Positions 6,001-29,107 of a stretch of 36,615 nt of DNA are shown here, in pieces. The stretch is from Acidobacteriota bacterium (lineage in GTDB: Bacteria > Acidobacteriota > Polarisedimenticolia > Gp22-AA2): contig QHXZ01000027.1 in NCBI GenBank assembly GCA_003223165.1, positions 1 to 36,615 of the forward strand, in the 5' to 3' direction. Every line of letters starts with the position of its first letter. The stretch's first letter is position 1. The notes beneath the pieces are model-generated. The model saw only the letters and a program-made list of their open reading frames with translations. It was not told the DNA's origin and did no database searches. The position numbers were made by a program, and so were the translations under genes.

Positions 6001-6514
6001 CCTGGCGCGGCCATTGGCCGAGGGGTCGATCCCGGAGACGGTCAAGGTGAACGAGATCACCCTGAGCGGCGCGCACCTTCACCGGCGAGGATTCCCGAGG
6101 GAGCACAGCCCGGACGGCCGCGAGCCCAAGCTCTACGATTACGGGATCATCGACAATACGCAGCCGTTCCGCGTCATGAGCGGGGAGTACACGCGCTTCG
6201 GCCGCGTCACCGAGCTCCTGAGCCGGACGGACGATCGCTTCGTCATCTTCGGCAAGGGAGAGGAGGTCACCCTGGAATTTCCGGTGAAGGGGTTGCCGGA
6301 GCTGCCGAAGGGGTCGTCGCGCAGCTTCCTGCTCTACGCCAACGGCTACTGCAAGGACATGGACCCGCACACCGCCTCCCCGGAGACCGTGGAGCCGCTG
6401 CCCTTCCACGGCATGTCCGCCTACCCCTACCCGGACGGCGAGGCCTACCCCGACGACGAGGAGCACCGCGAGTACCGCAAGACCTACAATACGCGCACGC
6501 TCGAAGGTCGTTGA
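3002..6514 (+). CDS. Secreted TPR / FG-GAP repeat / ASPIC-UnbV (CRTAC1-like) protein
   Basis: A very large (about 1170-residue) exported protein of the CRTAC1/UnbV type. Order of parts: a hydrophobic signal-like stretch (about residues 20-37), roughly four TPR repeats (50-217), seven FG-GAP/VCBS-type calcium loops of the form D-x-D-x-DG-x-x-D (about 308 to 630; e.g. GDLDGDGLPDLVF, GDFDNDGDVDLYL, ADLDGDGDLDLVV), an ASPIC/UnbV domain (about 650-740; EGVGAKVEVQAG, GYLSQSPPLAHFGLGN, VWPGGV), then about 425 residues of a conserved-looking region with no name I know. The loops predict a calcium-bound beta-propeller. Start: GTG 3002 has GGGGGAGG at 2985-2992; GTG 3005 and ATG 3017 are alternatives. 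ABC ATPase and permease genes follow within 11 bases, so it may depend on, or serve, that transporter. Function unknown. Confidence 0.85.
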   Translation: MVPERMRGSRTVVRPGARAAALVLSLALGGSEGPGVAKEAPPAPTSGGQAEQAIRANNRGAALMEQFKHAQAVEEFRKVTQLVPRWAAGFANLGLAAFYARDHGAAQTALREAIRLDPRLIQGHYGLALLLKNEGKSEEAIALLEEALTLDPEDPDLLYNLGLLHARLRKFDAAARLLVRAREIDPNSMSIRYQLARALLQAGQAESGRKEMAAYQKLAANPRFAVPTGNQYGEAGRYALVLTDYGALGGPPPAPTPATVRFSEVTGAPALTFVHAGPGGEVDGPGPGGAKAGALQRAARYGSGVAIGDLDGDGLPDLVFANADAAGTARPALYRNRGGWSFEDVTARSGVTYAGAGMAAVLGDFDNDGDVDLYLTGSGGGALFANQGQGVFQDVTAKAGAKTAGFGVGASWVDVDHDGDLDLFICRLPLAGAAAGSGAVLLRNLGNGTFKDATAELSLGGPVSGAIGSVWSDFDADRDIDAVLSIPGGQDALLDNRREAGFSERGRAAGLAPRGAGRGVSAGDVNGDGLPDLVFSAGAGGPVRVLLNGPRRVFTARDLPRPQGVSSYGTVLFDADNDGDLDLFVTGSANLLYLNDGSGVFHDATAEAGLGGIPFKDGRAVAAADLDGDGDLDLVVTANGARPLLLRNEGGQRNHWLEVTPRGLNSNREGVGAKVEVQAGALWQRREVQAGAGYLSQSPPLAHFGLGNRSVADFVRLVWPGGVLQSEMDVPAGQRVEETELDRKGSSCPLLFAWNGGKYGFVTDFLGVGGLGMWMAPGVYGRPDPEEYVKLEPDQLRPKDGGYLLQVMENLEEVAYLDQVKLIAVDHPKGIDVYPYQQFGSKERSPYRLLALERGGRVFPTRAVDDGGRDVTDRLLRIDRTYPDDFRLHRLAGYADMHTLTLEFPEAAARQDGMVLFLYGWVDYEYSSSNFAAHQAGLTLVPPVLETEGADGLFEARLDPMGFPPGLPRMMTVDLSSVGGPRSRRLRLRTNMRIFWDQIFLARPLAEGSIPETVKVNEITLSGAHLHRRGFPREHSPDGREPKLYDYGIIDNTQPFRVMSGEYTRFGRVTELLSRTDDRFVIFGKGEEVTLEFPVKGLPELPKGSSRSFLLYANGYCKDMDPHTASPETVEPLPFHGMSAYPYPDGEAYPDDEEHREYRKTYNTRTLEGR

Positions 6515-6524
6515 GGGGGAGCGG

Positions 6525-7502
6525 ATGCCGGCGGCCATCCTGGCGGAGGATCTCGGCAAGATCTACGTGAAGCGGCGCAGCCTGCGCGAGATGACACGGA
6601 GGCCCTTCGGGCGGGCGGAGCGGGTGACGGCGCTCACCGGGATCGGCTTCGAGGTGCGCGCCGGCGAGATCTTCGGGTTGCTCGGGCCGAACGGCTCCGG
6701 CAAGACGACGCTCCTGAAGATCCTGGCCTGCCTGGTCCTTCCGAACGCGGGCCGGGCGCTGGTGGACGGGCTCGACGTGGCCCGCCATGATCGTGCGGTC
6801 AAGCGCCTGGTCGGATTCGTGACCGCCGACGAGCGCTCGTTCTACTGGCGCCTGACGGGGCGGGAGAACCTGCACTTCTTCGCCACCCTTTATGGACTCG
6901 GCGCCGCGCAGGCGCGAACGAGGGCGGACGAGCTGGTCTCGGCCATGGATCTGGCCGGCGTGGCCGACCAGCAGTTCATGAGCTACTCCTCCGGGATGAA
7001 GCAGCGGCTGGCGATCGCCCGCGCCTTGCTGCACGATCCTCCGATCCTCTGCCTCGACGAGCCGACCCGCAGCCTGGATCCGATCGCCGCCAAGCACCTG
7101 CGGCGCTTCATCGTCGAAGAGCTCAACGCGCGTCACGGACGGACGATCCTGCTCGCGACGCACAATCTCCAGGAAGCGGAGGAAATCTGCGGCAGGCTCG
7201 TCGTGCTCGACCGAGGACACGTGATCCGCCAGGGGAGCGTCGCGGCCATCACGGCCGGATTGCCCGGCCGCCTCCCTCGCCTCCCGGACGATCCACGCTG
7301 GTCCCTGGGGCTGGAGCGGCGCGACGGTGACCTCGCCCGGGTCGACGCGGCGGTCGACCGGGGCGGCGTGGCGTTGTCCGATCTGCTGCGCGGGATCCTG
7401 GATGGAGGCGGCACGATCCAGGCGTGCAGCCGCCGCGAGTCGAGCCTGCAGGAGATCTTCGACCGCATCGACGCGGGCCCGGCCCGCCCGGAGGAACCGT
7501 GA
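6525..7502 (+). CDS. ABC transporter ATP-binding protein (ABC-2 / DrrA-NatA type)
   Basis: Cytoplasmic ATPase subunit of an ABC-2-type exporter, 325 residues. Walker A is GPNGSGKTT (Lys 60), the Q-loop region follows, the signature is SYSSGMKQRLA from residue 153, Walker B is ILCLDEPT near 175-182, and the switch His lies in ATHNLQEAEE. The SSGM form of the signature and the roughly 90-residue tail after the ATPase core are common in DrrA/NatA-like proteins. ATG 6525 has a strong purine-rich site (GAGGGGGAG) just upstream. It lies 10 bases after the large secreted protein and overlaps the permease start by 4 bases (GTGA), so all three are very likely one operon. The exported substrate cannot be read from the sequence; drugs, lipids, polysaccharide or sodium are all seen in this family. 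Confidence 0.93.
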   Translation: MPAAILAEDLGKIYVKRRSLREMTRRPFGRAERVTALTGIGFEVRAGEIFGLLGPNGSGKTTLLKILACLVLPNAGRALVDGLDVARHDRAVKRLVGFVTADERSFYWRLTGRENLHFFATLYGLGAAQARTRADELVSAMDLAGVADQQFMSYSSGMKQRLAIARALLHDPPILCLDEPTRSLDPIAAKHLRRFIVEELNARHGRTILLATHNLQEAEEICGRLVVLDRGHVIRQGSVAAITAGLPGRLPRLPDDPRWSLGLERRDGDLARVDAAVDRGGVALSDLLRGILDGGGTIQACSRRESSLQEIFDRIDAGPARPEEP

Positions 7503-8320
7503 GGGTCCTGCGCGCGCTCCTGGCCTTCCTGAAGCGGGACTTTCTGATCGAGGTGTCCTACCGGACCTCGTTCGTGCTGCAGTTCCTGGGAATCATGTTC
7601 TCCGTGTTGATCTGGTTCTACATCTCGCGGGTGGTGGCGGCGCCTCCCACGACACCCGGCCTGGACGGGCTGGACTACTTCGCCTACGTGCTCCTTGGGC
7701 TGGCGTTCTTCCATTACCTCTCGGCGGCGATGATGTCGTTCGCCGGCAAGGTCCGCAACGAGCAGGTCACGGGCACGCTCGAGGCGATGCTGGTCACGCC
7801 TACCTCCGTCGGGACGATCGTCCTCGGCTCCTCGCTCTGGGACTTCGTCCTGACCTCGTTCAAGGTCGTGGTCTATCTGCTCGTCGGCCGGCTCGCCTTC
7901 GGCGTCGTCATCCACCTGGACAGCCTTCTCTCCTGCCTCCTGGTGCTCGCCTTGACGGTGCTCGCCTTCTCGGGCATCGGCATTCTGTCGGCTGCGCTCA
8001 TCCTGTACCTCAAGCGCGGGGATCCGATCACCTCCCTGGTCGCAAGCCTTTCGGCGCTTCTGGGGGGCGTCTTCTATCCCCCCGAGGACATGCCCGCCTG
8101 GCTCGGGATCGGGTCGCGCTTCCTGCCGATCACCTATGCCCTGCACGCCCTCCGCCGAGCTCTTGCCCGACATCGAGGCGCTGGTGCTGTTCGTCGCGGT
8201 GCTGCTGCCTCTCGGGCTCCTGGCGTTCCGCTTCGCCGTGCGCAAGGCGCGCGAAGAGGGGTCGCTGGTCCAGTACTAGGAGCGCGTACCGAGGGCGGGT
8301 ACGATCCCCCGCTTCGTTGA
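7499..8320 (+). CDS. ABC-2 type transporter permease, frameshifted near the C-terminus
   Basis: Inner-membrane permease partner of the preceding ATPase. GTG 7499 overlaps the ATPase stop (GTGA). Residues 1-215 look normal: a cytoplasmic FLKRDF start, membrane helices around YRTSFVLQFLGIMFSVLIW and YVLLGLAFFHYL, the QVTGTLEAMLVTPTS coupling segment, and a GGVFYPPEDMPAWL motif typical of the family. After ITYALHAL (to about 8150) this frame turns into an Arg/Ala-rich sequence with poor codon usage and runs to a stop at 8318-8320, inside the icd promoter. The expected last membrane helix and tail are found in another frame at 8151-8279. A loss of 3n+2 bases around 8141-8157 would explain this, so the gene is either damaged or carries a sequencing error. 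The protein as encoded would lack its last transmembrane helix. Confidence 0.85.
   Translation: MRVLRALLAFLKRDFLIEVSYRTSFVLQFLGIMFSVLIWFYISRVVAAPPTTPGLDGLDYFAYVLLGLAFFHYLSAAMMSFAGKVRNEQVTGTLEAMLVTPTSVGTIVLGSSLWDFVLTSFKVVVYLLVGRLAFGVVIHLDSLLSCLLVLALTVLAFSGIGILSAALILYLKRGDPITSLVASLSALLGGVFYPPEDMPAWLGIGSRFLPITYALHALRRALARHRGAGAVRRGAAASRAPGVPLRRAQGARRGVAGPVLGARTEGGYDPPLR
8151..8279 (+). other. Out-of-frame C-terminal segment of the ABC-2 permease
   Basis: This segment, one frame away from the permease, reads SAELLPDIEALVLF, then a hydrophobic helix, then a basic REEGSLVQY tail and a TAG stop at 8277-8279. That is the usual ending of ABC-2 permeases. Nearly every codon ends in G or C, unlike the overlapping frame. 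It supports an indel at about 8141-8157 rather than a natural early end. Confidence 0.75.
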
Positions 8321-14914: not shown

Positions 14915-16786
14915 ATGAAGGATCTCGCCCGCCTGCTGCGCTACGTCCGGCCCTACGTGAGACGTCTGGCAGCGGCCGTCGTCTGCTCGGGGCTCGTCTC
15001 CCTCGCTTACCTCGGCCTGTTCAGCCTCATCCAGCCGATCTTCGATCAGGTCTTCGCGCGCAACGTGGTCGGGCCGGCCGCCACGGGCGGCAAGATCCAG
15101 CTCCTCGACGAGACCCGCCGCCTGATCGGCGCCGGCGGCCGGACCTTCGCGCCGCTCGCCTCTCTCGCGTCCCGGATCGGCGAAGGGTCGGCCGGCACGG
15201 GGCTGCTGGTGGCGCTCCTGCTGGTGGTGCTGTTCCTCTTCAAGGGTTTGTTCACCTACCTCTCTGAGTACTTCACGCGCTGGACGGGACTGCAGGCGGT
15301 CCTGGATCTGCGCCGGGATCTCTACGCCCGCATCCACCGTCAATCGCCCGCCTTCTTCTCGGAGCACCCGACCGGCCTCCTGATCGCCCGCGTGATGAAC
15401 GACGTGGGCCGCATCCAACGCACCGTCTCGGGAGACCTCGCCGAGATCTTTCGTCTCGTGGCGATCGTCCTGGGCCAGGCCGTCTGGCTGTTCTATCTCA
15501 ACGCCCGCCTGGCCGCCTTCTGCCTGGTGCTGCTGCCGCTCATCCTCCACCCGGTCGCCCGCTTCGGGAGCCGCCTCAAGGTCACGAGCCGCCGCAGCCA
15601 GGAGCGCCTGGGCGATGCGGTCAGCATCATGAAGGAGGGACTCGCCGCGACGCGCGTGGTGCAGGCCTTCGGCATGGAAGAGTTCGAGATCGAACGCTTC
15701 AGCGCCGCGCTGAGCAGGATGCAGCGGGCCGAGAAACGCGCGGCGCGGCTCCTCTCCTTGAGCGGCCCGGTCCTGGAGCTGATGGGCGCCGTCGGCGGCG
15801 CCATCCTCATCTGGTACGCGGTGCTGCGCATCAACTCGGGAAAGCTCTCACCGGGCGAGTTCGCCACCTTCGTCGCCGCGCTCTTCATGATCTACACCTC
15901 GATCAAGAACCTGGTGAAGATCTACAACGAGGTGCAGCAGTCGATGGCCTCGGCGCGAAGGGTCTTCGAAATCATGGATCTCGAGAACCGCATCCGCGAG
16001 AAGCCCGACGCCATAGAGCTGCCGGCGTTCCGCGAGCGGATCGAATTCCGCGGCGTCCACTTCGCCTACGGCCAGGCCCCCGTCCTGCGCGGCATCGACC
16101 TGACCGTGCCGGCCGGCCAGGTCGTCGCCCTCGTCGGGCCGAGCGGAGCGGGAAAGTCGACGCTGGTCAACCTGCTGTCGCGCTTCTACGATGTGACGCA
16201 GGGGGCCGTGCTCATCGACGGCCACGATGTGCGCGACGTGACGCTGGCATCGCTGCGCCGGCAGATAGGGCTCGTCACGCAGGAAGTGCTCCTGTTCGAC
16301 GACACCGTCCGCAACAACATCGCCTACGGCCGTACGGACATCCCGCTGGAGCGTGTCGTCGAGGCGGCGCGTGCCGCCTACGCCGACACCTTCATACGCG
16401 CCCTCCCCCACGGCTACGACACGCGGCTGGGTGAGGCGGCCCACCGGCTTTCCCTCGGGCAACGGCAACGGCTCTCGATCGCCCGGGCCATCCTCAAGGA
16501 CTCTCCGATCCTGATCCTGGACGAGGCCACCTCCTCGCTCGACATGGAATCCGAGGCGGAGGTGCAGGGCGCCCTGCAGAACCTCATCGCAGGGAGGACC
16601 GTGTTTGTCATCGCCCACCGGATCTCGACGGTGCGGCGCGCCGACACGATTCTCGTCCTGGAGGGCGGGATGATCGTCGAGCGCGGTCCGCACCCGGACC
16701 TCCTGGAGCGCAAGGGCCTGTACGCGCGGCTGCACGCCCTGCAGTTCCGCGACACGGAGCCGGCACCGGAGGCCTCGGCGCTCTGA
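14915..16786 (+). CDS. ABC transporter with fused permease and ATPase (MsbA-like lipid flippase)
   Basis: A half-transporter of 623 residues with an N-terminal membrane domain (about 1-340, six predicted helices) and a C-terminal ATPase. Walker A is GPSGAGKST near residue 407-415, the Q-loop lies in IGLVTQEVLLFDDTV, the signature is LSLGQRQRLSIARA near 510 (third position Leu instead of Gly), Walker B with D-loop is ILILDEATSSLD, and the switch His is in FVIAHR. The closest functional class is MsbA, which flips lipid A-core across the inner membrane; the following GT39, PAP2 and glycosyltransferase genes support an envelope-lipid job. A multidrug exporter is the main alternative. ATG 14915 has only a weak ribosome site and may depend on translation from ndk. 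Confidence 0.9.
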   Translation: MKDLARLLRYVRPYVRRLAAAVVCSGLVSLAYLGLFSLIQPIFDQVFARNVVGPAATGGKIQLLDETRRLIGAGGRTFAPLASLASRIGEGSAGTGLLVALLLVVLFLFKGLFTYLSEYFTRWTGLQAVLDLRRDLYARIHRQSPAFFSEHPTGLLIARVMNDVGRIQRTVSGDLAEIFRLVAIVLGQAVWLFYLNARLAAFCLVLLPLILHPVARFGSRLKVTSRRSQERLGDAVSIMKEGLAATRVVQAFGMEEFEIERFSAALSRMQRAEKRAARLLSLSGPVLELMGAVGGAILIWYAVLRINSGKLSPGEFATFVAALFMIYTSIKNLVKIYNEVQQSMASARRVFEIMDLENRIREKPDAIELPAFRERIEFRGVHFAYGQAPVLRGIDLTVPAGQVVALVGPSGAGKSTLVNLLSRFYDVTQGAVLIDGHDVRDVTLASLRRQIGLVTQEVLLFDDTVRNNIAYGRTDIPLERVVEAARAAYADTFIRALPHGYDTRLGEAAHRLSLGQRQRLSIARAILKDSPILILDEATSSLDMESEAEVQGALQNLIAGRTVFVIAHRISTVRRADTILVLEGGMIVERGPHPDLLERKGLYARLHALQFRDTEPAPEASAL

Positions 16787-16819
16787 ACGCGGGTACCCGC
16801 CCCTCCGGGAGCACGGTCG

Positions 16820-18478
16820 ATGGTGTCCTTGAAGGTCCGCATCTTCAGCACCGACCGCCGTTGTCTCCTGCTGGTGGTCCCGCTGGCCCTCCTGCTCTTC
16901 TCCCTCGATCTGGGCGGACGCGATCTCTGGGCACCGGATGAGCCGCGCACCGGGGAGGTCGTGCGCGAGATCCTGCTGACCGGTTCCTGGGTCGTCCTGC
17001 ACGACAACGGCCTGCCGTACGTCGAGAAGCCGCCGCTCTACTTCTGGATCGCGGCCGCCCTCGCCCGCGCCGCGGGGGAGGTCACCGAGCTGACGGTGCG
17101 CCTGCCTGCCAGCCTGGCGGGGCTCCTGGGTGCGGTCTGCCTCTTCGCGCTCGGGCGTGGCCTGTTCGGCCGGCGCACGGGTGCCCTGTCCGCGATCGTC
17201 CTGATCACCACGCAGAAGTACTTCATGGAGGCGCGCTGGGCGCACCCGGACATGCTCTGGACGCTTCTCCTGATCTTCTCCTGCCTGGCCTTCCACCAGG
17301 CCCACCGTGCGGAAGGCGATCGGCGCTGGCTCGCCGCCTTCTATCTGGGGCTGGGGCTCGCCACGCTCACCAAGGGACCCCTCGGCCTGCTCCTGCCCTT
17401 GGCCGCGGTGGCGGTGTTCCTCGCTTCGTGCCGGGATCTCCCGTTCCTGCGCCGCGCCGGGTTGCCCTGGGGCCTGCCGCTGGCCGTGGCGCCTGCCGCC
17501 CTCTGGCTCGGCGCCTACCACGCGGCCTCGGGGGGCGCCTTCCCGGTCGGGGAGGCCATCGCCCGCATGCTTGAGCGCTTCACGCGCGGGCTGCACCATC
17601 CCCGCCCCTTCCTGCATACCCTGACGAGCCTGCCTCTCGATACGCTGCCCTGGCTCGTCCTCCTCCCGGCGGCGCTGGCGCTCACCTTTCCACGCCGCGG
17701 CGGCCGCGGTGACCGGGAGGTCGCCTACATCTACTCGTGGATCGCGGTGATCCTCGCCGTCTTCACCTTCTCGGCCGAGAAGCGCGGCGTCTATCTGCTG
17801 CCGCTCCTGCCGTTGCTGGCGCTCCTCATCGGCCGTCTCTGGGACACGGCCCTCCTCGGCTGGGAGCCATCGCCGCTCGACGGGCCGATCGCCTGGTCGC
17901 TCGCCGGGGGCCTTCTGCTGGCGGCGGGGGCCACGGTGATCCTCCTGCCCCGGATCGCCCGGGAGGCGCCGGCGCTGCACCACCCCGCCGCGATCCTGGC
18001 CGCCGCCGCGCTGCTCGGGCTCGCCGCCGCGCTGGCCGTCCTGCGCCGTTGGGGCGGCGGGGCGGCGCTTGGGGTCTTCGGCGCCGGCCTCGTCGTCTGC
18101 TACCTGACCATCGCGCTCACCATCCTCCCGGCGCTCGATCGCTACAAGTCGGCGCGACCGTTCTGCGCGCGTGTCGCGGCGCTCGCCGGGGCCGCCCCGC
18201 TCGCGATGTATCCCGACTATCACGCGGCGTACGTGTTCTACACGCGACGCTTCATCCGGGTGCTCCCGGATCGGCCGGCGCTGGCGGCTTTCCTGGGGTC
18301 GGGGGAGAGGGTCTTCTGCCTGATCGAGGACGACCGTTTCGAGGTCGAGCGTCGCATGCTCGGCATCCCCCTCCAGGTGGTCGATCGGGAGCGGGTGGGT
18401 CATCGTGGCATGCTGCTGGTGTCGGCCGGCGCCGCTTCCTCCCCGGACGAGGGAGCCGCTCGGGGCGGGGCTCCATGA
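16820..18478 (+). CDS. Membrane glycosyltransferase, GT39/ArnT-like (first copy)
   Basis: A multi-pass inner-membrane glycosyltransferase of 552 residues related to ArnT and protein O-mannosyltransferases. These enzymes take a sugar from a polyprenyl-phosphate carrier and transfer it, on the periplasmic side, to lipid A or protein. The first periplasmic loop has the catalytic-type Asp/Glu in [14 protein letters not shown], followed by EKPPLYFW, both hallmark motifs. About 11-12 hydrophobic helices are visible up to about residue 450, with a smaller soluble C-terminal part. ATG 16820 has GGGAG at 16806-16810. A paralogue lies at 22055-23707. The stop overlaps the PAP2 gene start (ATGA), so the two are coupled. 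Acceptor and sugar cannot be read from the sequence. Confidence 0.88.
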
Positions 18479-21462: not shown

Positions 21463-22029
21463 TCACCCGCCCGCGGTCTTCCAGGAAAGGAAGGCGAAGA
21501 CGACGAGGAGTCCGGCGATCACCATGGGCTCCTGGTTGCGCACCATCCGCCCGAACGACCAGGCGAGCTTCTCGCCCGGATAGCGGCTCAGCCCCGGGAA
21601 GAGGATCGGAACCCTGGCGTGGTAGGCCTCGAACGCCGGGCCGTGGAGGCGGGCCAGGCGGGCCCCTTCGACGCGCAGCTTGCGCGGCAGATAATAAAGG
21701 AAGAAGACGGCGTATCCCACGGCCAAGGCCGCGAGGTTCCAGCGGGCTTCGCTGCGGGCCGCGACGGCGAGACCGGTGAGGATGAGGAGGCGGCCGAGGT
21801 AGAGCGGGTTCTGCGTGTAGGCATAGGGGCCGGAGGTCGCCAAGCGTGCCGACTTGACCAGGTGCCCAGCGGCCCAGACCCGCAGCGCTTCGCCCAGGAG
21901 CACCAGGGCGCCGCAGGCGGCGAGAGGCGGCGGGGTCGGACGGGACAGGACGACGAGGACGGCGATGAATGAGTAGACCGACGCGATCCGCGCCCAACCG
22001 AGGATCCTGCTTCGCTCTCCCACGGCCAT
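21463..22029 (-). CDS. Small membrane methyltransferase, isoprenylcysteine carboxyl methyltransferase (ICMT) family
   Basis: A 188-residue integral membrane protein of the ICMT/phospholipid-methyltransferase superfamily. Four to five hydrophobic helices are visible, with the SAM-binding signature LATSGPYAYTQNPLYLGRLL (G-P-Y-x-Y-x-x-N-P-x-Y) and a later EGARLARLHGPAFEAYHARV helix that matches the usual E-x-x-x-L-x-x-x-x-G-x-x-Y-x-x-Y pattern. Bacterial members methylate lipids or small molecules; there are no prenylated CaaX proteins to suggest the eukaryotic substrate. Start: upstream in-frame ATGs exist up to 22077, but a strong minus-strand promoter at 22049-22077 would begin the transcript near 22041, so ATG 22029 is chosen. 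It is convergent with, and exactly abuts, the GT4 gene. Confidence 0.82.
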   Translation of the reverse strand: MAVGERSRILGWARIASVYSFIAVLVVLSRPTPPPLAACGALVLLGEALRVWAAGHLVKSARLATSGPYAYTQNPLYLGRLLILTGLAVAARSEARWNLAALAVGYAVFFLYYLPRKLRVEGARLARLHGPAFEAYHARVPILFPGLSRYPGEKLAWSFGRMVRNQEPMVIAGLLVVFAFLSWKTAGG

Positions 22030-22048
22030 GCCCCGCGACGAGGCGGGC

Positions 22049-22077
22049 ATGCTAATGAACTCCGGGGGGGCTGTCAA
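22049..22077 (-). promoter_or_regulatory. Predicted sigma70 promoter of the ICMT-family gene
   Basis: On the minus strand: perfect TTGACA (22072-22077), 17-bp spacer, TAGCAT (22049-22054). The spacer contains a run of seven C. The element overlaps the start region of the divergent GT39 gene. Confidence 0.7.
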
Positions 22078-23707
22078 CGTGCGACGGGCCGGCCTCGAAG
22101 AGGGGCGCGCGCGGGACCTGCTGATCTTGACGCTGGCCGGGCTGGCCCTCTTCGTCTGGCGCCTCGGCTCGCACGATTTGTGGCCGCCGGACGAGCCGCG
22201 CTTCGCCTTGGTGGCGCGCGAGATGTGGCAGAGGGCCGACTACGCCGTCCTGTCGCTCGACGATCGCCTGTACACGGACAAGCCGCCGCTGTTCTTCTGG
22301 GCCATCAACGGGTTCGGCCGCCTCCTTGGAGGGGTCGACGAGTGGGCGGCGAGGCTGCCGTCCGCGGTCGCCGGCTTGCTCGCGCTCCTCCTGACATACT
22401 GGCTCGGGGCGTCGCTGTACGAGCGGCGTACCGGGTTGTACGGCGCGCTGGTCTTCGCGACCTCGGTCCAGATCGTCGAGCGCGCACGCTGGGCCTCGAT
22501 CGACATGACGCTCAGCCTCTTCGTCCTCTCCGCCGTCGTCCTGCTCTGGCGTTCGTGGACCGCGCCCGAGCGGGCGCCCTGGGTCGTGCGCGGGGCCTGG
22601 ATCCTGATGGGCCTGGCCACGCTCGCCAAGGGCCCCGTCGGCCTGCTTCTGCCCCTCCTGGCGGTCCTGCCTGCGATGCTCTTGGAGCGCGACCTCCTCG
22701 CCGTGCGCCGGGTCTTCCTGCCGTCCGGGATTGCCCTGTACCTGGCGGTCACCCTGGCATGGTTCGGGATCTTCGCCCACCGCGTCGGGGCCGCCTTCGC
22801 CGTCCAGGTCCTGGTGCACCAGAACGTGGAGCGCTACGTGGACGCCTGGAACTCCCGGCATCCGGTCTGGTACTACCTGTGGCGCTTTCCCGCCGGGTTC
22901 TTTCCTTGGAGCCTTGCCTTCCCCTGGGGGATCGCACAGGGGTACGCTCCGGAGGAAGCGCACCACAGGCGATCGGTCACGTTTCTGGTGACCTGGATCG
23001 TCGCCATCCTCGTGTTCTTCTCGCTGTCGACGGGGAAGCGCGGCGTCTACATCATCCCTCTCTACCCGGCGGCCTCGATCCTGGTCGGAAGGCTCCTGGC
23101 GCAGGCCGGCGCGCCGGGGTCCACCGGCGGGCGGGCGGCCCGGCGGCGGTTGCTCCCCCCTCTGGCCCTCTGGATCGCCTCCGGCGCCTTTCTCGCCATC
23201 GGACTGCCGTTCCTGGCGCGCGCCCGCTTTCCATCCCTCGCCCCCGTGGCCGCCATCGTGGGCCTGAGCCTGCTGGGCGGGGGGATTGCCTCGTGCGTCC
23301 TGGTGCGCCGGCGCGGGGGCGCCGGCGCGCCGGCCTGCCTGGCCGTTTCGGCCGGGATCGCGCTGCTGGTCGTGGTGGGCGCCGCCGTGCCGCGCGTGAA
23401 CGCCTACCAGAACATCAAGGGCTTCGCCGAGCAGGTGAAGGCGCGGCTCGACCCGGGAGCGCGCTTCGCGACCACCGAGCAGAAGAGAGACGCGTGGGTG
23501 TTCTACACCGGCCGCTTCGCCGAGCCGCTGGACACGCCGGAAAGGGTGCTGGCCTACCTCGCTCTGCCCGGGCGACGCGATCTGCTCATCGAAGAGGGGA
23601 AGCTGCGGGAAGTGCGCGCGGCGCTGCCTGCCGGGGTGGTGGAAATCCTGCGGGGCCGGGTCGGCAGCCAGGAGTACCACCTCCTCGAACGGGCATCGGC
23701 GCCGTGA
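22055..23707 (+). CDS. Membrane glycosyltransferase, GT39/ArnT-like (second copy)
   Basis: Paralogue of the GT39 gene at 16820-18478, about 550 residues. It has the same loop motifs, HDLWPPDEPRFALVAREM and DKPPLFFWAING, then about eleven membrane helices. The predicted reaction is transfer of a sugar from a polyprenyl-phosphate donor to a periplasmic acceptor (lipid A, lipid or protein). The conserved VVREI/VAREM step after the DEPR motif and the KRGVYIIPLYPA segment match the ArnT/PMT superfamily well. Start is uncertain: ATG 22028, ATG 22055 and GTG 22079 (with a GGGGGGG stretch 8-9 bases upstream) are all in frame; the first two lie in the divergent promoter region. The next gene overlaps its stop (GTGA). 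Confidence 0.87.
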   Translation: MNSGGAVNVRRAGLEEGRARDLLILTLAGLALFVWRLGSHDLWPPDEPRFALVAREMWQRADYAVLSLDDRLYTDKPPLFFWAINGFGRLLGGVDEWAARLPSAVAGLLALLLTYWLGASLYERRTGLYGALVFATSVQIVERARWASIDMTLSLFVLSAVVLLWRSWTAPERAPWVVRGAWILMGLATLAKGPVGLLLPLLAVLPAMLLERDLLAVRRVFLPSGIALYLAVTLAWFGIFAHRVGAAFAVQVLVHQNVERYVDAWNSRHPVWYYLWRFPAGFFPWSLAFPWGIAQGYAPEEAHHRRSVTFLVTWIVAILVFFSLSTGKRGVYIIPLYPAASILVGRLLAQAGAPGSTGGRAARRRLLPPLALWIASGAFLAIGLPFLARARFPSLAPVAAIVGLSLLGGGIASCVLVRRRGGAGAPACLAVSAGIALLVVVGAAVPRVNAYQNIKGFAEQVKARLDPGARFATTEQKRDAWVFYTGRFAEPLDTPERVLAYLALPGRRDLLIEEGKLREVRAALPAGVVEILRGRVGSQEYHLLERASAP

Positions 23708-24435
23708 GGCTGCTGCGCGTCGCGGCGGGCGCGGGGATCGCGGTCCTGGGGCTGGTCGTCCTCTGGGCCTTCGGTCTGGCTCCCGTCCCGGAAGGGATCA
23801 GCCGCCGGCTGGCGGCCTTCGAAGCGGTCTTTCCGGGACGCTGGACCCGCGCGGAGGTGGAACGGGTCCCGTGCCCGCCGCTGCGCAGGTTGCGCCTCTA
23901 CGTCGTCTGCACGGACGGCTGCGACGGAATATGGAAGGTGGTCGGCGTGCGAGGATTCAGGACCCTCCCGCTCATCAACCTGAACCGCATGCCTCCCGAA
24001 CCCACCGAGGACGTGCGCCGGCGGTTCAACCGTGAGGTCGCGAAGGAGGCGCTGCGATTGGACCCCGGCGAAGCCGTCGACATGATCGGCTGCTACCTGG
24101 GACTCGCCGGGCTCCATCCCGAGCTGGTCCTCACGGATGCCGCGCTCGCCGCGGTAGAGACCGCGCGCGAAGGGCCCCGGCCCGAGGACGCGATGAAGAG
24201 CGTGGCGGAGGGGCTGGACGGGCCCGACGCGCTGTCGCGCCTCACGGTCGAGGAGACGGCGCAGGGGTTCGAGTCGAGCTTCCGCTACTGGGACACCGCC
24301 AGCGCGGGCCGGCCGGTGCTTGAGATGGACTATCGGCTGGGTCGCAACGGCGTGCTGCTCGGGGTCCGCGTGCGGGAGCGGTCGCCTACAGGCGATACTG
24401 CTTCCGGTAGTACTCCAGGTAGGCCCCCGACTTGA
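23704..24435 (+). CDS. Hypothetical membrane-anchored protein
   Basis: A 243-residue protein that I do not recognise. GTG 23704 overlaps the GT39 stop by 4 bases (GTGA), so it is probably translated with that gene. The N-terminus is a single hydrophobic segment (AGAGIAVLGLVVLWAFGLA) that could be a signal anchor, and the rest would be periplasmic. Four cysteines lie at VPCPP, VVCTDGCDGIW and IGCYLG, which could pair as disulfides outside the cytoplasm. A helical region and a C-terminal strand-rich part (LEMDYRLGRNGVLLGVRVRE) follow. The last 50 bases overlap the convergent rfbB gene. A role alongside the GT39 transferase is inferred only from coupling. Confidence 0.7.
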   Translation: MRLLRVAAGAGIAVLGLVVLWAFGLAPVPEGISRRLAAFEAVFPGRWTRAEVERVPCPPLRRLRLYVVCTDGCDGIWKVVGVRGFRTLPLINLNRMPPEPTEDVRRRFNREVAKEALRLDPGEAVDMIGCYLGLAGLHPELVLTDAALAAVETAREGPRPEDAMKSVAEGLDGPDALSRLTVEETAQGFESSFRYWDTASAGRPVLEMDYRLGRNGVLLGVRVRERSPTGDTASGSTPGRPPT

Positions 24436-25396
24436 TCTTCTCCCACCAATCCCGATGGTCCGCGTACCACGCGATGGTCTCTTCGAGCCCCTCGTCGAAG
24501 GGAGTGCGCGGCGACCATCCGAGCAATCGCAGTTTGCGGCAGTCGAGGGCGTAACGCCGGTCGTGCCCCGGCCGGTCGGAGACGGAGCGCACGAGACCGG
24601 GGGGCTTGCCGAGCCGCTCGAGGATGGCCCGGCTGATGTCGATGTTGCGCCGCTCGTTGCCGCCGCCGACGTTGTAGACCTGGCCGGGGGTGCCTCGCTC
24701 GAGGACCACGTCGAGAGCCTCGCAGTGGTCGCCCACGAAGAGCCAGTCGCGCACGTTCAGCCCGTCGCCGTAGAGGGGCAGCGCTTGATCATCGAGAGCG
24801 TTCGTGACGAACAGCGGGATCAGCTTCTCGGGGTATTGGTTCGGACCGAAATTGTTCGAGGCGCGCGTGATCAGCACGGGCAGCCCGTAAGTCGCGTGGT
24901 ACGAGTAGGCGAGGCGGTCGGCCGCGGCCTTGCTTGCGGCATAGGGGTTCGACGGCATCAGGGCGTCCTCCTCGCGGCTGGCTCCCTGCGGAACGCTGCC
25001 GTAGACCTCGTCGGTGGAGATCTGGAGGAAGCGCTTGACACCGCGCGACCGCGCTGCCTCGAGGAGGGCGTAGGCGCCGTAGATGTCGGTGCGGATGAAG
25101 CCCTCCGGATCGCCGATCGAGCGATCGACGTGCGTCTCCGCGGCGAAGTTGAGCACGATGTCGGCGCCGCCTTCCATGGCCAGCGCCACGTCCTCGCGCG
25201 AGGCCACGTCGCCGCGGAGGAAACGATAACGCGCGTGCCCCTCGAGGTCCTTCAGGTTGTCCGGGTTGCCGGCGTACGTCAGCTTGTCGAGGACGGTGAC
25301 CTGCCACTCGGGGTGACGGGCGAGGGCGTGATGGGCGTAATGGGATCCGATGAAGCCCGCGCCGCCCGTGATCAGCACGCGCGTCATGGGCTTCAC
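24386..25396 (-). CDS. rfbB: dTDP-glucose 4,6-dehydratase
   Basis: Short-chain dehydrogenase/reductase-family enzyme converting dTDP-glucose to dTDP-4-keto-6-deoxyglucose with bound NAD. Visible features are GGAGFIGSHY, NFAAETHVDRS, the catalytic STDEVYG (Thr-Asp-Glu) and YAASKAAAD (Tyr-x3-Lys), ASNNFGPNQYPEKLIP, DGLNVRDWLFVGDHC and DRPGHDRRYALD. The length of about 336 residues is normal. The start is either GTG 25396, which overlaps the rfbA stop (GTGA coupling), or ATG 25387 three codons later; both give an intact enzyme. It is the third gene of a minus-strand rfbC-rfbA-rfbB operon. The C-terminus overlaps the convergent hypothetical gene by 50 bases. Confidence 0.96.
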   Translation of the reverse strand: MKPMTRVLITGGAGFIGSHYAHHALARHPEWQVTVLDKLTYAGNPDNLKDLEGHARYRFLRGDVASREDVALAMEGGADIVLNFAAETHVDRSIGDPEGFIRTDIYGAYALLEAARSRGVKRFLQISTDEVYGSVPQGASREEDALMPSNPYAASKAAADRLAYSYHATYGLPVLITRASNNFGPNQYPEKLIPLFVTNALDDQALPLYGDGLNVRDWLFVGDHCEALDVVLERGTPGQVYNVGGGNERRNIDISRAILERLGKPPGLVRSVSDRPGHDRRYALDCRKLRLLGWSPRTPFDEGLEETIAWYADHRDWWEKIKSGAYLEYYRKQYRL

Positions 25397-26136
25397 CCGA
25401 GGCGGGCGGTCAGGGTCTCGATCTTCTTCTCACGCACGAGCTGGTTGGCGCGAAACAACGACTCGAACGTCCCGGCGTCGGTCCACCAGCCCTCGAGCAC
25501 GTCGTGCTGCAGATCGCCGCGCTTGATATAGGCGTTGTTGACGTCGGTGATCTCCAGCTCGCCGCGCTCGGACGGCTTGAGCGTTGCGATGATGTCGAAG
25601 ATCGTCGGGTCGTACATGTAGACGCCGACGACCGCATAGTCGGATTTCGGGTTCCTGGGCTTTTCCTCGATCGAGACGATGCGACCGTCGCGGAATTCCG
25701 GGACGCCGAAACGGCCGGGGTCCGCGACGCGCTTGAGGAGCAGCCGGGCGCCGCCAGGCTGATCGGCGAAGGCCTGCACCGATCGCTTGATATCTCCTTC
25801 GATGATGTTGTCACCCAGCATCACGACAATCTTCTCGCCGTCGGCGAAGTGCCGGGCCAGGGAGAGGGCGTCCGCGATCCCGCCCTCCCCCTCCTGATAG
25901 GTGTAGGCGATGTCCTCCAGTCCGAACTCCTTCCCGTTTCCCAGGAGGCGCAGGAACTCCCCCGCGTGGTTCCCGCCGGTGACGATCAGGATGTCGCGCA
26001 GGCCGGCGCCGACCAGCGTCAGCAACGGGTAGTGGATCATCGGCCGGTCGTAAATCGGGAGCAGGTGCTTGTTGGTGATCTTCGTGAGCGGGTGCAGGCG
26101 CGTCCCGAGCCCCCCGGCGAGGATGACCCCCTTCAT
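25393..26136 (-). CDS. rfbA: Glucose-1-phosphate thymidylyltransferase, short type
   Basis: Makes dTDP-glucose from dTTP and glucose 1-phosphate. It begins MKGVILAGGLGTRLHPLT, the nucleotide-binding signature, then NKHLLPIYDRPMIHYPL, MLGDNIIEGD (metal-binding Asp), GRFGVPEF, IEEKPRNPKSDYAVVGVYMY and EITDVNNAYI. At 247 residues it is shorter than the E. coli RmlA (about 290) and lacks the C-terminal extension, like the short forms seen in many bacteria and archaea. ATG 26136 is chosen because the signature follows directly; an AAGGAA stretch lies about 11 bases upstream. It starts 4 bases after the rfbC stop and overlaps rfbB by 4 bases. Confidence 0.94.
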   Translation of the reverse strand: MKGVILAGGLGTRLHPLTKITNKHLLPIYDRPMIHYPLLTLVGAGLRDILIVTGGNHAGEFLRLLGNGKEFGLEDIAYTYQEGEGGIADALSLARHFADGEKIVVMLGDNIIEGDIKRSVQAFADQPGGARLLLKRVADPGRFGVPEFRDGRIVSIEEKPRNPKSDYAVVGVYMYDPTIFDIIATLKPSERGELEITDVNNAYIKRGDLQHDVLEGWWTDAGTFESLFRANQLVREKKIETLTARLG

Positions 26137-26140
26137 GGCG

Positions 26141-26596
26141 TCACTTTTCCTTGAGGGCCCAGTCGTACGGGACCGAGGGGGTGCGGGGATCGACGCGGTA
26201 CTCGTCGGGCGCATCGTAACGGTACGGCTCGGTCGGCAGGTTGAGCATGATGGCTTCCTCGGTTCCGATCGCTTTGAAGCCGTGCAGGACCAGCAGGGGG
26301 ATCTGCAGCAAGGTGGGGTTGTGCACGCCGAGGAAGAACTCGTTCACCTCCCCGCGCGTGGGAGAGTTCTCCCGGTCGTCGTACAGCACCACTTTGAACA
26401 TGCCCTTCACGCCGACGAAGTTGTCGACCTGGATCTTGTGGTAGTGCCAGCCCTTGATGACGCCCGGGTAGGCCGTGGTGATATAGGCTTGGCCGAACTT
26501 GATGAACAGGTCGTCGTCGCAGCGGAGCGTCTCCATGAGGCGCCCCCGTTCGTCGGGGATCACCTTGAGCGGCTTGAGACGGACATCCTTGATCAC
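26141..26596 (-). CDS. rfbC: dTDP-4-dehydrorhamnose 3,5-epimerase family protein
   Basis: A cupin-fold sugar-nucleotide epimerase of about 151 residues, shorter than classical RmlC (about 180). It starts VIKDVRLKPLKVIPDERG and has FGQAYITTAYPGVIKGWHYH with the catalytic-type His pair, NFVGVKGMFKVVLYDDR, PLLVLHGFKAI and NLPTEPYRYDAPDEYR. These are typical of the small RmlC-like family found beside rfbA/rfbB. The true substrate may be dTDP-4-keto-6-deoxyglucose or a related sugar. Start GTG 26596 aligns with the family N-terminus; its GGAGGT site lies only 3 bases upstream, which is unusually close. First gene of the rfbC-rfbA-rfbB operon. No rfbD reductase is present in the window. Confidence 0.9.
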   Translation of the reverse strand: MIKDVRLKPLKVIPDERGRLMETLRCDDDLFIKFGQAYITTAYPGVIKGWHYHKIQVDNFVGVKGMFKVVLYDDRENSPTRGEVNEFFLGVHNPTLLQIPLLVLHGFKAIGTEEAIMLNLPTEPYRYDAPDEYRVDPRTPSVPYDWALKEK

Positions 26597-26664
26597 GACA
26601 CCTCCGCCGTGCCCGGGAGCACGCGGCCCAGCGTCCCGCCCGGCCGGCGCCAAGGATAGCAGAT

Positions 26665-27354
26665 CTAGGGCGCGCCGCGGGGCCGCCGGGCGCCGCGAAT
26701 CAGGCCGCGCAGAACCGTCCCGATGCGGTAGAAAAGCGGCTGCGGGGGAAGCGGCGCTCCCGGGAGGGGAGCAAGGCGCCGGCGCAGCCTTGCAACCGAG
26801 CGGAGATCGGCGCGACGCATCTGGTCGAAGAGGAACCGTCGCAGCGGGCCCGACCCCGGGCCCTCGACCAGGCAGGTCGAGAAATCGACCAGGTAGGGGC
26901 GACCACCTGGACCCTCCAGGACGTCGTGGCGGTGCAGATCGCCGTGGGCGACGCCGGCGGCGTGCAGCGCCTGCACCAGGAGATCGAGGCCGTCGAAGAA
27001 GGAGCCGGGGAGGTCTCCGGGGCGGATCGAGGCCAGCGTCCGGCCGGGGATGTACTCCAGAACGATCGCCTGCGGGTCCAGGCGCCCCAGGAAGCGGGGC
27101 ACTCCCGGCACGCACCCGAGTCGCGCGTAGGCGCGCGCCTCCCGGTCGAGCTGCCACGGGCCGAGAAGCCGGCGCACCGGCCAGGGACGGCCCATGACAT
27201 CCTTGACGACCAGCGACCGCCCCTCCAACTCGACCAGGTCCACCGAAGCCTTGGTGAAATTACGTCCTTCGTGGAGCCGGGTGCGGGGACGCCCGGTCAG
27301 GCTCTCGCGTGTCGGGGTCGGCGTGGAGATGGTCGGAACGGACGGAGCCACCAT
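26665..27354 (-). CDS. WaaP/RIO-like mini-kinase (first of a divergent pair)
   Basis: A 229-residue protein with a small kinase fold related to lipopolysaccharide kinases (WaaP/KdkA) and RIO kinases. After a Thr/Ser/Pro-rich start, a beta region ends in LVVKDV (likely ATP-binding Lys), with the helix Glu in DREARAY, a hinge in VLEYIPGRTL, a catalytic-loop HGDLHRHDVL, and the metal-binding Asp in YLVDFSTC. The loop position normally Asn is Asp here. A phosphoryl transfer to an envelope sugar is the natural guess, but the substrate is unknown. ATG 27354 is preferred to an upstream start at 27456. The gene is divergent from a clear paralogue at 27423 and lies 68 bases upstream of the rfb operon. 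Confidence 0.8.
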   Translation of the reverse strand: MVAPSVPTISTPTPTRESLTGRPRTRLHEGRNFTKASVDLVELEGRSLVVKDVMGRPWPVRRLLGPWQLDREARAYARLGCVPGVPRFLGRLDPQAIVLEYIPGRTLASIRPGDLPGSFFDGLDLLVQALHAAGVAHGDLHRHDVLEGPGGRPYLVDFSTCLVEGPGSGPLRRFLFDQMRRADLRSVARLRRRLAPLPGAPLPPQPLFYRIGTVLRGLIRGARRPRGAP

Positions 27355-27370
27355 GAGGCCTGGAAGCGGT

Positions 27371-27380
27371 ATGGTAAGAT
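27371..27380. promoter_or_regulatory. Overlapping divergent -10 elements between the two mini-kinases
   Basis: The 10 bases hold TAAGAT for the plus strand (27375-27380, with an extended TGG before it) and TACCAT for the minus strand (27371-27376). No convincing -35 is seen for either. The plus -10 lies only 3 bases before ATG 27384, so that ATG would be upstream of the transcript and GTG 27423 is the likely start. Confidence 0.4.
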
Positions 27381-27422
27381 CGCATGCCCTCACGAAGGCG
27401 AAGGATAGCACAGGAGCACGAA

Positions 27423-28058
27423 GTGGCGCAGACCGCCGCGGCGACGGACGAGTCATTGATGACGGTGACCCTGGTGCAGCGAGGGGGCTGGTTCAAGGCC
27501 GATGTCAAGGAGGTCGCCCTGGCGGGGGACCGCGCGATCCTCAAGGACTTCGCGGACAAATCCTGGCTGTCACGCCTTCTTGGCCGGCGCCAGATCGGGC
27601 GCGAGATCCGCGCTCTCACGCGGTTGCAGGGCATCCCGGGCATCCCCGCCTGCTACGGCGAAGCCGGCCCCTGGGGCGTGCTGATGGAGCGCGTCGAGGG
27701 CGAACGGATTACGCGCTGGTGCCGGTTGAAGCCGGGTGAGCGTACGATGATGTTCGGACGCCTCGATCGCCTGGTCGACTCGATCCACCGTCGCGGGGTC
27801 GCGCACATCGACCTGCGCAAGCGGGACAACATCCTGGTCGGCGAGGACGGATCGCCCCGCATCATCGACTTCAACGCTTCATTCTGCTTCGCGCCGGGCG
27901 GCCTGGGCGTCCGGCTGCTCTTCCCGGTGTTGCGCCGCGTCGACACCGCCGCGGTCCTGAAATGGAAGTCGCGGCTGGCGCCGCACCTTCTGACATCCAC
28001 CGAGGCGCGCCGCCACCGCTGGATGAGCGCCTTGAGGCGCCTCTGGATCTTCAACTGA
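27423..28058 (+). CDS. WaaP/RIO-like mini-kinase (second of a divergent pair)
   Basis: A 211-residue paralogue of the gene at 26665-27354, divergent from it. Shared parts in order: a beta region FKADVKEVALAG followed by RAILKDF (likely ATP-binding Lys), an RLLG motif before the Glu helix REIRAL, a G-I-P-x-CYG turn, hinge VLMERVEGE, catalytic loop HIDLRKRDNILV with Asp and Asn, and metal-binding Asp in IIDFNASF. Unlike the first copy, it keeps an Asn in the loop, so it looks more likely to be active. Probable job is phosphorylating a lipid-linked or envelope sugar; substrate unknown. GTG 27423 is chosen because AGGAG (27412-27416) lies 6 bases upstream. The DPM1-like gene begins 1 base after its stop. 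Confidence 0.82.
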   Translation: MAQTAAATDESLMTVTLVQRGGWFKADVKEVALAGDRAILKDFADKSWLSRLLGRRQIGREIRALTRLQGIPGIPACYGEAGPWGVLMERVEGERITRWCRLKPGERTMMFGRLDRLVDSIHRRGVAHIDLRKRDNILVGEDGSPRIIDFNASFCFAPGGLGVRLLFPVLRRVDTAAVLKWKSRLAPHLLTSTEARRHRWMSALRRLWIFN

Positions 28059-28059
28059 C

Positions 28060-28791
28060 GTGAGCGGCGAGCGCGACCCGGACGTCGACATCTCCGTCGT
28101 CATCCCCGTCTACAACGAACGCGACAACCTCGCGCCCCTGCTGGCGGAGGTGACCGCGGTGCTCCTCGGCCTCGGGCGGCCGTACGAGATCCTGTTCGTC
28201 GACGACGGCAGCACGGACGGCAGCGGGGGCGTGCTCGCAGAGCTGCGGAAAGGGGACCGGCGCGTGCGCCTCGTCAGCTTCGCCCGCAACGCAGGCCAGA
28301 CGGCCGCCATGGACGCCGGCTTCCGGCGCGCGCGGGGCCGCGTGATCGTCACCCTTGATGCCGACCTGCAGAACGATCCGGCCGACATCCCGCGCCTCCT
28401 GGCCGACCTCGAGGGGTGGGACGCGGTGGTCGGCGTGCGCGCCCGGCGCCGGGACACCTGGGTGCGACGCGTCTCCTCCCGGGTCGCCAACTACGTGCGC
28501 AACCGCCTCAGTGACGAATCAATCTCCGACACAGGCTGCTCGCTCAAGGCCTACCGCCGGGAGGCCTTGTCGAGGCTCGTCCTCTACAGCGGCATGCACC
28601 GCTTCCTCCCGACGCTGCTCAAGATGGAAGGCTTTCGTGTGAGGGAGACGCCGGTGGGCCATCGCCCGCGTCGTTCGGGGGAGTCGAAGTACGGCATCTC
28701 CAACCGCCTGGTGCCCTCCTTCATGGACCTCATGGCGGTGCGGTGGATGAAGCGGCGCAAGCTGCGTTACGAGGTGAAGGATGAATCTTGA
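28060..28791 (+). CDS. DPM1-like glycosyltransferase family 2 (polyprenyl-phosphate sugar synthase type)
   Basis: A 243-residue GT2 enzyme of the dolichol/polyprenyl-phosphate mannosyltransferase group, which moves a sugar from a nucleotide donor onto a polyprenyl phosphate at the inner face of the membrane. It has ISVVIPVYNERDNLAPLL, ILFVDDGSTDGS, FARNAGQTAAMDAGF, the metal-binding TLDADLQNDP, GVRARRRDTW, SISDTGCSLKAYRRE and the HRPRRSGESKYGISNR tail motif. The C-terminal membrane helices of ArnC/GtrB are absent, so it probably relies on a partner. GTG 28060 comes 1 base after the kinase stop and the next membrane gene overlaps its end by 11 bases, so kinase, GT2 and LAB_N genes form one operon. 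Confidence 0.92.
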   Translation: MSGERDPDVDISVVIPVYNERDNLAPLLAEVTAVLLGLGRPYEILFVDDGSTDGSGGVLAELRKGDRRVRLVSFARNAGQTAAMDAGFRRARGRVIVTLDADLQNDPADIPRLLADLEGWDAVVGVRARRRDTWVRRVSSRVANYVRNRLSDESISDTGCSLKAYRREALSRLVLYSGMHRFLPTLLKMEGFRVRETPVGHRPRRSGESKYGISNRLVPSFMDLMAVRWMKRRKLRYEVKDES

Positions 28792-29107
28792 GCACCTGAT
28801 GCACGTCAACGCCTGGGTGCTGTTCGGGCTTCTGGGACAGGCCTTCTTCACCCTGCGGTTCCTGGTCCAATGGGTGGCCTCCGAGCGCCGGGGCCGCAGC
28901 ACCGTGCCGGAGGTGTTCTGGTACCTCAGCCTGGCAGGCGGGGCGATGCTGCTCGTGTACGCTTTCTGGTACCGGCACGATCTGGTCTTCACGCTCGGGC
29001 AGTTCGCGGGGCTGTTCGTCTACACGCGGAACCTCGTGCTGATAAGGAGGCTGCGCGGGCGCGCGGACGCAGTGGCGGCTCAGGGGATCGCGGGACCCGG
29101 CGCGTAG
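28781..29107 (+). CDS. Lipid-A-disaccharide synthase N-terminal-domain (LAB_N) membrane protein
   Basis: A 108-residue integral membrane protein of the lipid-A-biosynthesis N-terminal-domain family. Three hydrophobic helices are visible: VLFGLLGQAFFTLRFLVQW, FWYLSLAGGAMLLVYAFWY and FTLGQFAGLFVYTRNLVLI. The FxxRFxVQW, S-x-VP-x-x-FW-x-LS and GQ-x-x-G-x-x-x-Y-x-RN patterns are typical. This free-standing protein is often found beside DPM1-like GT2 and ArnT-like genes, as here. It may anchor the GT2 enzyme or help move the lipid-linked sugar across the membrane; neither is shown by the sequence. ATG 28781 lies inside the end of the GT2 gene. Its last 28 bases overlap the convergent VWA gene. Confidence 0.88.
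   Translation: MNLEHLMHVNAWVLFGLLGQAFFTLRFLVQWVASERRGRSTVPEVFWYLSLAGGAMLLVYAFWYRHDLVFTLGQFAGLFVYTRNLVLIRRLRGRADAVAAQGIAGPGA

Follow-up and report, generated by a model that had tools for sequence, protein, structure and literature searches.

The window analysed here is a stretch of 36,615 nucleotides located on contig C112 in the 3.06 Mb draft genome of an Acidobacteriota bacterium belonging to family f1 of its class (f numbers denote families within the class, L numbers loci and G numbers genomes). It contains two small kinase-like genes that are read away from each other, and this raises the question of whether the two belong together and, if so, what they act on and how their expression is arranged. 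We address it from sequence, by way of the paralogy of the two genes, the age of their duplication, their conservation, the states of their active-site residues, the facing -10 motifs between them and their neighbours. The gene on the minus strand is referred to as Km and that on the plus strand as Kp:

26665..27354, minus strand: Km, small kinase with the loop Asn replaced by Asp, 229 aa from ATG 27354
27423..28058, plus strand: Kp, small kinase with the loop Asn at catalytic Asp +6, 211 aa from GTG 27423

The ORF check confirmed two divergent kinase-like genes where the preliminary description had placed them; at full extent the reading frames cover 26665-27456 (minus strand) and 27384-28058 (plus strand). 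Km probably starts at ATG 27354, the in-frame upstream ATG 27456 being less likely, and Kp probably starts at GTG 27423 rather than at the in-frame upstream ATG 27384; the GTG position is common to the relatives in the f1 alignment and is preceded by AGGAG at 27412-27416. With these starts the two genes need not overlap. The proteins align with 36% identity over 199 aa (E = 1e-27), and when the host genome was searched with Kp as query the closest relative was Km (1.2e-25), all other matches being 1.2e-4 or weaker, such that the paralogy proposed earlier holds. The kinase motifs ascribed to both proteins (Lys, Glu, a HxDL-type loop and VDF/IDF) were also found: Lys51 (VVKD), Glu (DRE), HGDLHRHDV and VDF in Km, and Lys41 (ILKD), Glu (GRE), HIDLRKRDN and IDF in Kp.

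PknB-type kinases, E. coli WaaP and a KdkA-like protein (L001) served as outgroups in a tree from which the Km of L080, cut by a contig end, was omitted. The tree is a quick one and has no bootstrap values; 36 of its 96 inner branches are unresolved, and the program issued a warning about long branches meeting within the outgroup. All 87 Kp and Km rows form one group (SH-aLRT 92), within which 41 Kp rows make up one clade (SH-aLRT 94) and 38 Km rows another (SH-aLRT 87), while eight rows fall outside both (L114 and L116, labelled Kp, and L109, L110, L113, L120, L121 and L126, labelled Km). According to the preliminary description its reading would fail if the two proteins did not group together in a kinase tree; they do, and the joint clade together with the paralogy bears out a gene duplication. 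Given two parallel clades and pairing throughout the class, the duplication appears to be ancient and to predate the class. A recent local duplication was also considered and rejected on the basis of the tree.

Searching other genomes for the pair, as had been suggested, gave a clear result. Among the fetched loci the adjacent divergent pair (Km on the minus and Kp on the plus strand, with less than 250 bp between the domains) is kept in 23 of the 41 class genomes, and in two more, both of family f12, the genes are divergent with approximately 2.25 kb, including an additional gene, between them. Kp and Km are both present in all eight f1 genomes and are adjacent and divergent in seven; in the remaining one, G003, each sits at the end of a different contig and Kp is represented by a 45-residue piece only. 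The Kp profile was matched at 1e-12 in 40 of the 41 class genomes, and in at least 9 of 355 genomes in the rest of the phylum, a lower bound since at most seven candidates per genome were scored. In family f3, Kp is present in 11 and a Km-clade kinase in 10 of 12 genomes, never side by side in the fetched loci. Kp was found without Km in G024, neither was found in G038, and in G032 the two are on different contigs, with Km beside a GT2 gene. Kp and Km are hence a well-conserved gene pair and not a chance arrangement. Plasmid relatives were limited to two weak partial matches. A description of the pair was not found among the matches listed in the open-licence literature, for which some queries were too broad to inform.

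Two further observations concern the distribution. The approximately 2.25 kb of gap DNA in f12 (L093 and L094, in G039 and G040) seems by eye to encode CxxCH-type motifs. Outside the class, G260 (L107, about 5688-7633, minus strand) carries Kp, Km and a methyltransferase gene in tandem on one strand, and as its sequences fall among those of f8-f10 this suggests possible horizontal transfer.

To which family do the two kinases belong? All Pfam and NCBIfam matches, among others Pkinase, Kdo, RIO1, TCAD9, APH and PRK12274/PRK09188, are below the cut-offs. Km and Kp reach 14.5 and 15.9 bits against Kdo/WaaP (PF06293, cut-off 21.3 bits); Km reaches 13.9 bits against RIO1 (PF01163, cut-off 22 bits), for which Kp is without a listed match. 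The best NCBIfam match of both is PRK12274 (2.7e-18 for Kp and 1.6e-11 for Km), with 66.3 bits for Kp and 44.1 bits for Km compared to the equivalog cut-off of 372 bits (NF008910). AlphaFold2 models, built from five-row alignments, have a kinase fold in both cases. The mean pLDDT is 83.4 for the Km model and 75.6 for that of Kp; of the five Kp models a single one was good, the remaining four having values near 38. The nearest solved fold to the Km model is Rio2 (1tqi, Z 18.2 over 176 residues, 3.4 Å), followed by Rio1 (Z 16.8) and PknB (Z 15.8), and that to the Kp model is CurKC (7wj7, Z 14.7 over 187 residues, 3.8 Å), tied with Rio2 (Z 14.5) and followed by PRPK (Z 12.9), with many other kinases near 13. 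Both models are thus of the RIO-like minimal kinase fold, with many other kinases within a few Z units. WaaP is absent among the structure matches listed for the two models, which is no argument against a likeness to WaaP. As modelled, the fold gives no indication of the substrate.

As to the earlier assignment as WaaP/RIO-like, the fold is closest to RIO and similar minimal kinases, but the Pfam cut-offs for Kdo and RIO1 are not reached. The PRK12274/PRK09188 small kinases are the best family match, yet the scores are far below the curated cut-offs and Kp and Km form a divergent paralogous pair. The RIO and Bud32/PRPK minimal kinases provide the nearest solved folds but differ from Kp and Km by the approximately 20% identity, the RIO1 score below cut-off, the Asn at +6 in Kp and the Asp in Km. 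With WaaP and KdkA (Pfam Kdo) the pair shares the kinase fold and a lipid A-type neighbourhood, whereas the scores lie under the Pfam cut-off and WaaP and the KdkA-like protein branch outside the Kp/Km group.

These comparisons bear on the rival with the best standing, that Kp and Km are protein kinases which regulate envelope enzymes (e.g. of the lipid A pathway) instead of acting on glycolipids. Both PRK12274 and PRK09188 are named serine/threonine protein kinase, and the solved structures closest in fold, those of RIO and lanthipeptide-synthetase kinase domains, belong to kinases with protein or peptide targets. However, scores of 66 and 44 bits are far below 372, neither protein has any further domain over a Pfam cut-off, and the conserved neighbours (see below) look mostly like envelope glycolipid enzymes. 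We regard a role as protein kinases as possible, with a probability well short of even.

Active-site residues were counted, without the Km rows from outside the class, in an alignment of 41 Kp rows (minus L114 and L116), 27 main-group Km rows (minus L126) and 10 f3 Km rows (minus L120 and L121). Every row of the three sets has the Lys, Glu and catalytic Asp (41/41, 27/27 and 10/10), and the DFG Asp is present in 41/41 Kp, 26/27 main-group Km (the remaining one being cut by a contig end) and 10/10 f3 Km. Both proteins thus have the ion-pair Lys and Glu, the catalytic Asp and the DFG Asp expected of a protein-kinase-like fold. At the loop position, Kp has Asn in 41/41 rows, located at catalytic Asp +6 with one extra residue before it, main-group Km has Asp at +5 in 27/27, and f3 Km, which has moved away from Kp, has Asn in 10/10. 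Hence the Asn at the standard place, catalytic Asp +5 (N171 in PKA), is absent from Kp and main-group Km and is found in f3 Km only. The preliminary description, which gave one copy a normal loop Asn and the other an Asp, was right about the residue states, but the Asn of Kp is not in the normal place. E. coli WaaP is likewise without the loop Asn (HRDCYICH). A microbial kinome survey lists N171 among ten key residues and reports that nearly all of these are replaced in at least one family (PMC1821047).

Of the 27 main-group Km genes, 23 are adjacent to Kp, two are separated from it by the insert, one is at a contig end (G003) and one is on another contig (G032). The link between Asp and adjacency is consequently close but imperfect, and f3 is a single family. 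All 41 Kp rows retain the HxD His, compared to 11/27 main-group Km (lost in 16/27) and 1/10 f3 Km.

The suggestion that one copy may be inactive was developed into a second rival, in which Km, as a pseudokinase, would bind Kp and regulate it, with the replacement of Asn by Asp as the sign that catalysis has been lost. In its favour are the Asp in 27/27 main-group Km against 41/41 Asn in Kp, and the loss of the HxD His. Against it, Asp is able to coordinate Mg, and the Lys, Glu and catalytic Asp of Km are invariant, as is the DFG Asp in all rows reaching it, while f3 Km, which lies inside the Km clade, has Asn, either kept or regained. "Inactive" is therefore not the best reading for Km, and we consider the pseudokinase doubtful. 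A decayed kinase, also considered, is unsupported given the conserved catalytic residues.

Separately, the f3 Km loci L115, L117 and L127 have stop-free frames of 806-1143 aa, from which, in GC-rich DNA, a longer protein need not follow. L126 (G033:C8:96407-96733) is another small kinase, YIDLSKPENVLV, with Asn at +6, located approximately 9 kb from the KdtA (105412) and LpxK (106611) genes on the same contig.

The region between the two genes contains the following elements:

27370..27380, plus strand (hexamer 27375-27380): Kp extended -10, TATGGTAAGAT, based on the alignment of seven f1 members, the class-wide scan and shuffles
27412..27402, minus strand (hexamer 27407 to 27402): Km extended -10, reading TGTGCTATCCT, based on the alignment, the class-wide scan and shuffles
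27412..27416, plus strand: AGGAG, likely Kp ribosome-binding site, touching the Km -10 motif

The two -10 elements face each other with 21 bp between the hexamers. TRTGGTAANAT on the plus strand is conserved in 7/7 aligned f1 members and TGTGCTAT(T/C/A)(C/T)T on the minus strand in 6/7, and both stretches fit the extended -10 motif, TRTGnTAnnnT. We scanned 23 intergenic regions for TGnTAnnnT (excluding the two f12 regions of 2.25 kb) with dinucleotide shuffles as baseline. The motif was present in sense orientation in 20 regions and in antisense orientation in 21, with both in 18 and the facing layout in 17, compared to shuffle means of 0.8, 0.9, 0.09 and 0.05, respectively. With one locus per family (n = 8) the numbers were 7, 7, 6 and 5, and none of 1000 shuffles was as high. 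The gap between the hexamers is 21-25 bp in f1-f2, 41 bp in f7 and 71-73 bp in f8 and f9 as well as in two f10 loci. Opposing -10 elements, each downstream of the other, are thus seen at the level of extended -10 sequences in the window and in 17 of the 23 loci. The full facing layout is absent in six: the antisense motif is missing from the f6 locus and, within f1, from L044, the sense motif is missing from L088, L089 and L092 (all f10), and in f5 (L080), the only family of this kind among those examined, the -10 pair is symmetric and truly overlapping.

In f3, where Kp and a methyltransferase gene are divergent, the nine regions examined contain neither motif and hence no facing layout (0/9). 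These represent 9 of the 11 f3 Kp loci, L097 and L103 having been excluded for lack of a methyltransferase match beside Kp. As f3 is a single family, this absence amounts to one event in evolution, and another -10 pattern may apply to its promoters.

The 10-bp promoter core that the preliminary description had the two genes share is not supported by these data as the conserved feature. Of the overlapping -10 elements which it placed at 27371-27380, only the sense element is conserved (27370-27380). The window sequence permits overlapping hexamers on the two strands, as the antisense strand of the core reads TACCAT, but only 11 of 20 loci keep TAnnnT at this position, which is what a constraint acting on the sense motif alone would lead one to expect. 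That one symmetric core drives both Kp and Km is accordingly quite unlikely: f5 has overlapping extended -10 elements, and bidirectional promoters of this kind are common in E. coli (PMC12825309), but an antisense extended -10 is present in 21/23 loci (20/23 without f5), and in 20 of these it either lies away from the sense core or occurs where a sense core is missing. The conserved feature is two separate facing extended -10 elements.

Assuming a start approximately 7 bp past each hexamer, transcription is predicted to begin near 27387 for Kp and near 27395 for Km, and the two transcripts would overlap by approximately 9 nt in the window and approximately 58 nt in f8-f9. Since each -10 is located in or next to the initially transcribed region of the other, the firing of one promoter should hinder the other, and the mutually exclusive transcription proposed earlier is plausible on this geometry. 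Promoters that face each other can interfere, and Streptomyces scbA-scbR, a gene pair whose facing promoters give overlapping 5' regions as predicted for Kp and Km, has been modelled as a bistable switch on this ground (PMC3134472). By contrast, in a test of five bidirectional promoters of E. coli, all were too weak for competition between polymerases to play a part (Warman et al. 2026, PMC12825309). Unlike Kp and Km, which are paralogous kinases, scbA and scbR are signal-response genes.

The neighbouring genes in the window are:

28060..28791, plus strand: GT2 glycosyltransferase, best NCBIfam match ArnC (2.3e-48), below cut-off
28781..29107, plus strand: LAB_N small protein, over Pfam cut-off (1.2e-29)
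26141..26599, minus strand: RmlC-like short cupin, dTDP-sugar isomerase family, f1 insertion
25393..26139, minus strand: RmlA-like nucleotidyltransferase, f1 insertion
24386..25396, minus strand: RmlB, dTDP-glucose 4,6-dehydratase, over NCBIfam TIGR01181 cut-off, f1 insertion
22028..23707, plus strand: ArnT-like glycosyltransferase (PMT_2), NCBIfam ArnT (5.3e-44), below cut-off
21463..22077, minus strand: PEMT-type methyltransferase, best NCBIfam match LmtA (1.8e-8), below cut-off

LAB_N is the N-terminal domain of some lipid-A-disaccharide synthases, and the best NCBIfam match of the small protein is an LpxB fusion, below cut-off; LmtA is named lipid A-Kdo2 1-phosphate O-methyltransferase in NCBIfam. 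Neighbours were counted in 40 Kp loci, some of which end at contig ends, using the window proteins as tblastn queries. A GT2 match lies downstream of Kp on the same strand in 32 of the 40 (not found in eight) and a LAB_N match beside Kp in 24 (not found in 16, including all four f2 loci, some at contig ends); a convergent VWA gene is often next. On the Km side, 17 of the non-f1 pair loci have a left flank of at least 3 kb; every one of these carries a PEMT-type methyltransferase gene downstream on the Km strand, at a distance of up to approximately 3.5 kb, and in 13 it directly follows Km. The RmlC-RmlA-RmlB cassette follows Km directly in all eight f1 genomes, and Rml genes adjoin Km in none of these 17 loci. 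The dTDP-sugar operon noted earlier is therefore real in the window but lineage-specific, and as a functional core of the locus it was rejected. RmlD was not seen among the annotated genes beside the cassette at 24386-26599.

Further left, at 14915-18475 (plus strand), the window has an ABC exporter (ABC_membrane and ABC_tran) and, after it, another ArnT-like PMT_2 protein, the second in the window; lipid glycosylation-type genes thus reach well left of the pair. The gene at 2939-6511 (plus strand) encodes a large protein in which TPR and FG-GAP repeats are combined with an ASPIC/UnbV domain.

The LpxK, LpxC and Glycos_transf_N (KdtA) families are each present in 39 of the 41 class genomes, and the class thus probably makes lipid A with Kdo. 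As LpxK is present, no vacant lipid A kinase step calls for Kp or Km, and the idea of the two as stand-ins for a missing LpxK was discarded. ArnC-like and ArnT-like genes near Kp and Km are reminiscent of Bordetella lgmA-D and E. coli Arn, loci in which we know of no kinase pair. Lipid A species substituted with GlcN disappear on loss of lgmA-D (PMC11401268), and the methylated lipid A phosphate of Leptospira is the subject of two entries in the reference list of PMC10248169. That Kp is a lipid-carrier (polyprenol) kinase feeding undecaprenyl phosphate to the ArnC-like transferase is the least likely rival, as the position of Kp ahead of the GT2 gene would agree with it, but Km and its methyltransferase arm are left unexplained and we know of no polyprenol kinase with this fold.

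Our preferred reading, held with middling confidence, is that Kp and Km are active glycolipid or sugar kinases at the head of a lipid A/inner-core decoration locus with mutually hindering promoters. They would be anciently duplicated minimal kinases of RIO/Bud32 size, with one at the head of each arm of an envelope locus, the Kp arm usually running into an ArnC-like and often a LAB_N gene, and the Km arm, outside f1, towards an LmtA-like phosphate methyltransferase. Both would act on a glycolipid or sugar, Km with Asp in place of Asn as metal ligand, and would supply or tune phosphate groups that the partner enzymes then cap. We infer the decoration of lipid A or inner-core phosphates as the likeliest purpose because the conserved partners resemble ArnC, ArnT, LAB_N and LmtA, and the steering by mutually hindering promoters from their geometry. 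The chemistry may differ, given that the scores against ArnC, ArnT and LmtA fall far short of the equivalog cut-offs in every case. A more speculative extension, which we think improbable, is an either/or switch in which the Kp arm leads to aminosugar capping and the Km arm to methyl capping while the facing promoters compete, the Asn-to-Asp change in Km having evolved with linkage and been undone on its relocation. If true, two outcomes for lipid A/inner-core phosphates, aminosugar versus methyl, would compete via overlapping 5' ends.

Acidobacteria are common soil bacteria whose lipid A chemistry is little known. An ancient pair heading an apparent lipid A decoration locus provides a concrete substrate hypothesis for two enzymes, and the Asn/Asp difference at a metal-binding position, which tracks genomic linkage closely, constitutes a natural experiment on change in a kinase active site. 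Finally, the facing promoters offer a compact and testable case of transcriptional interference between paralogues.
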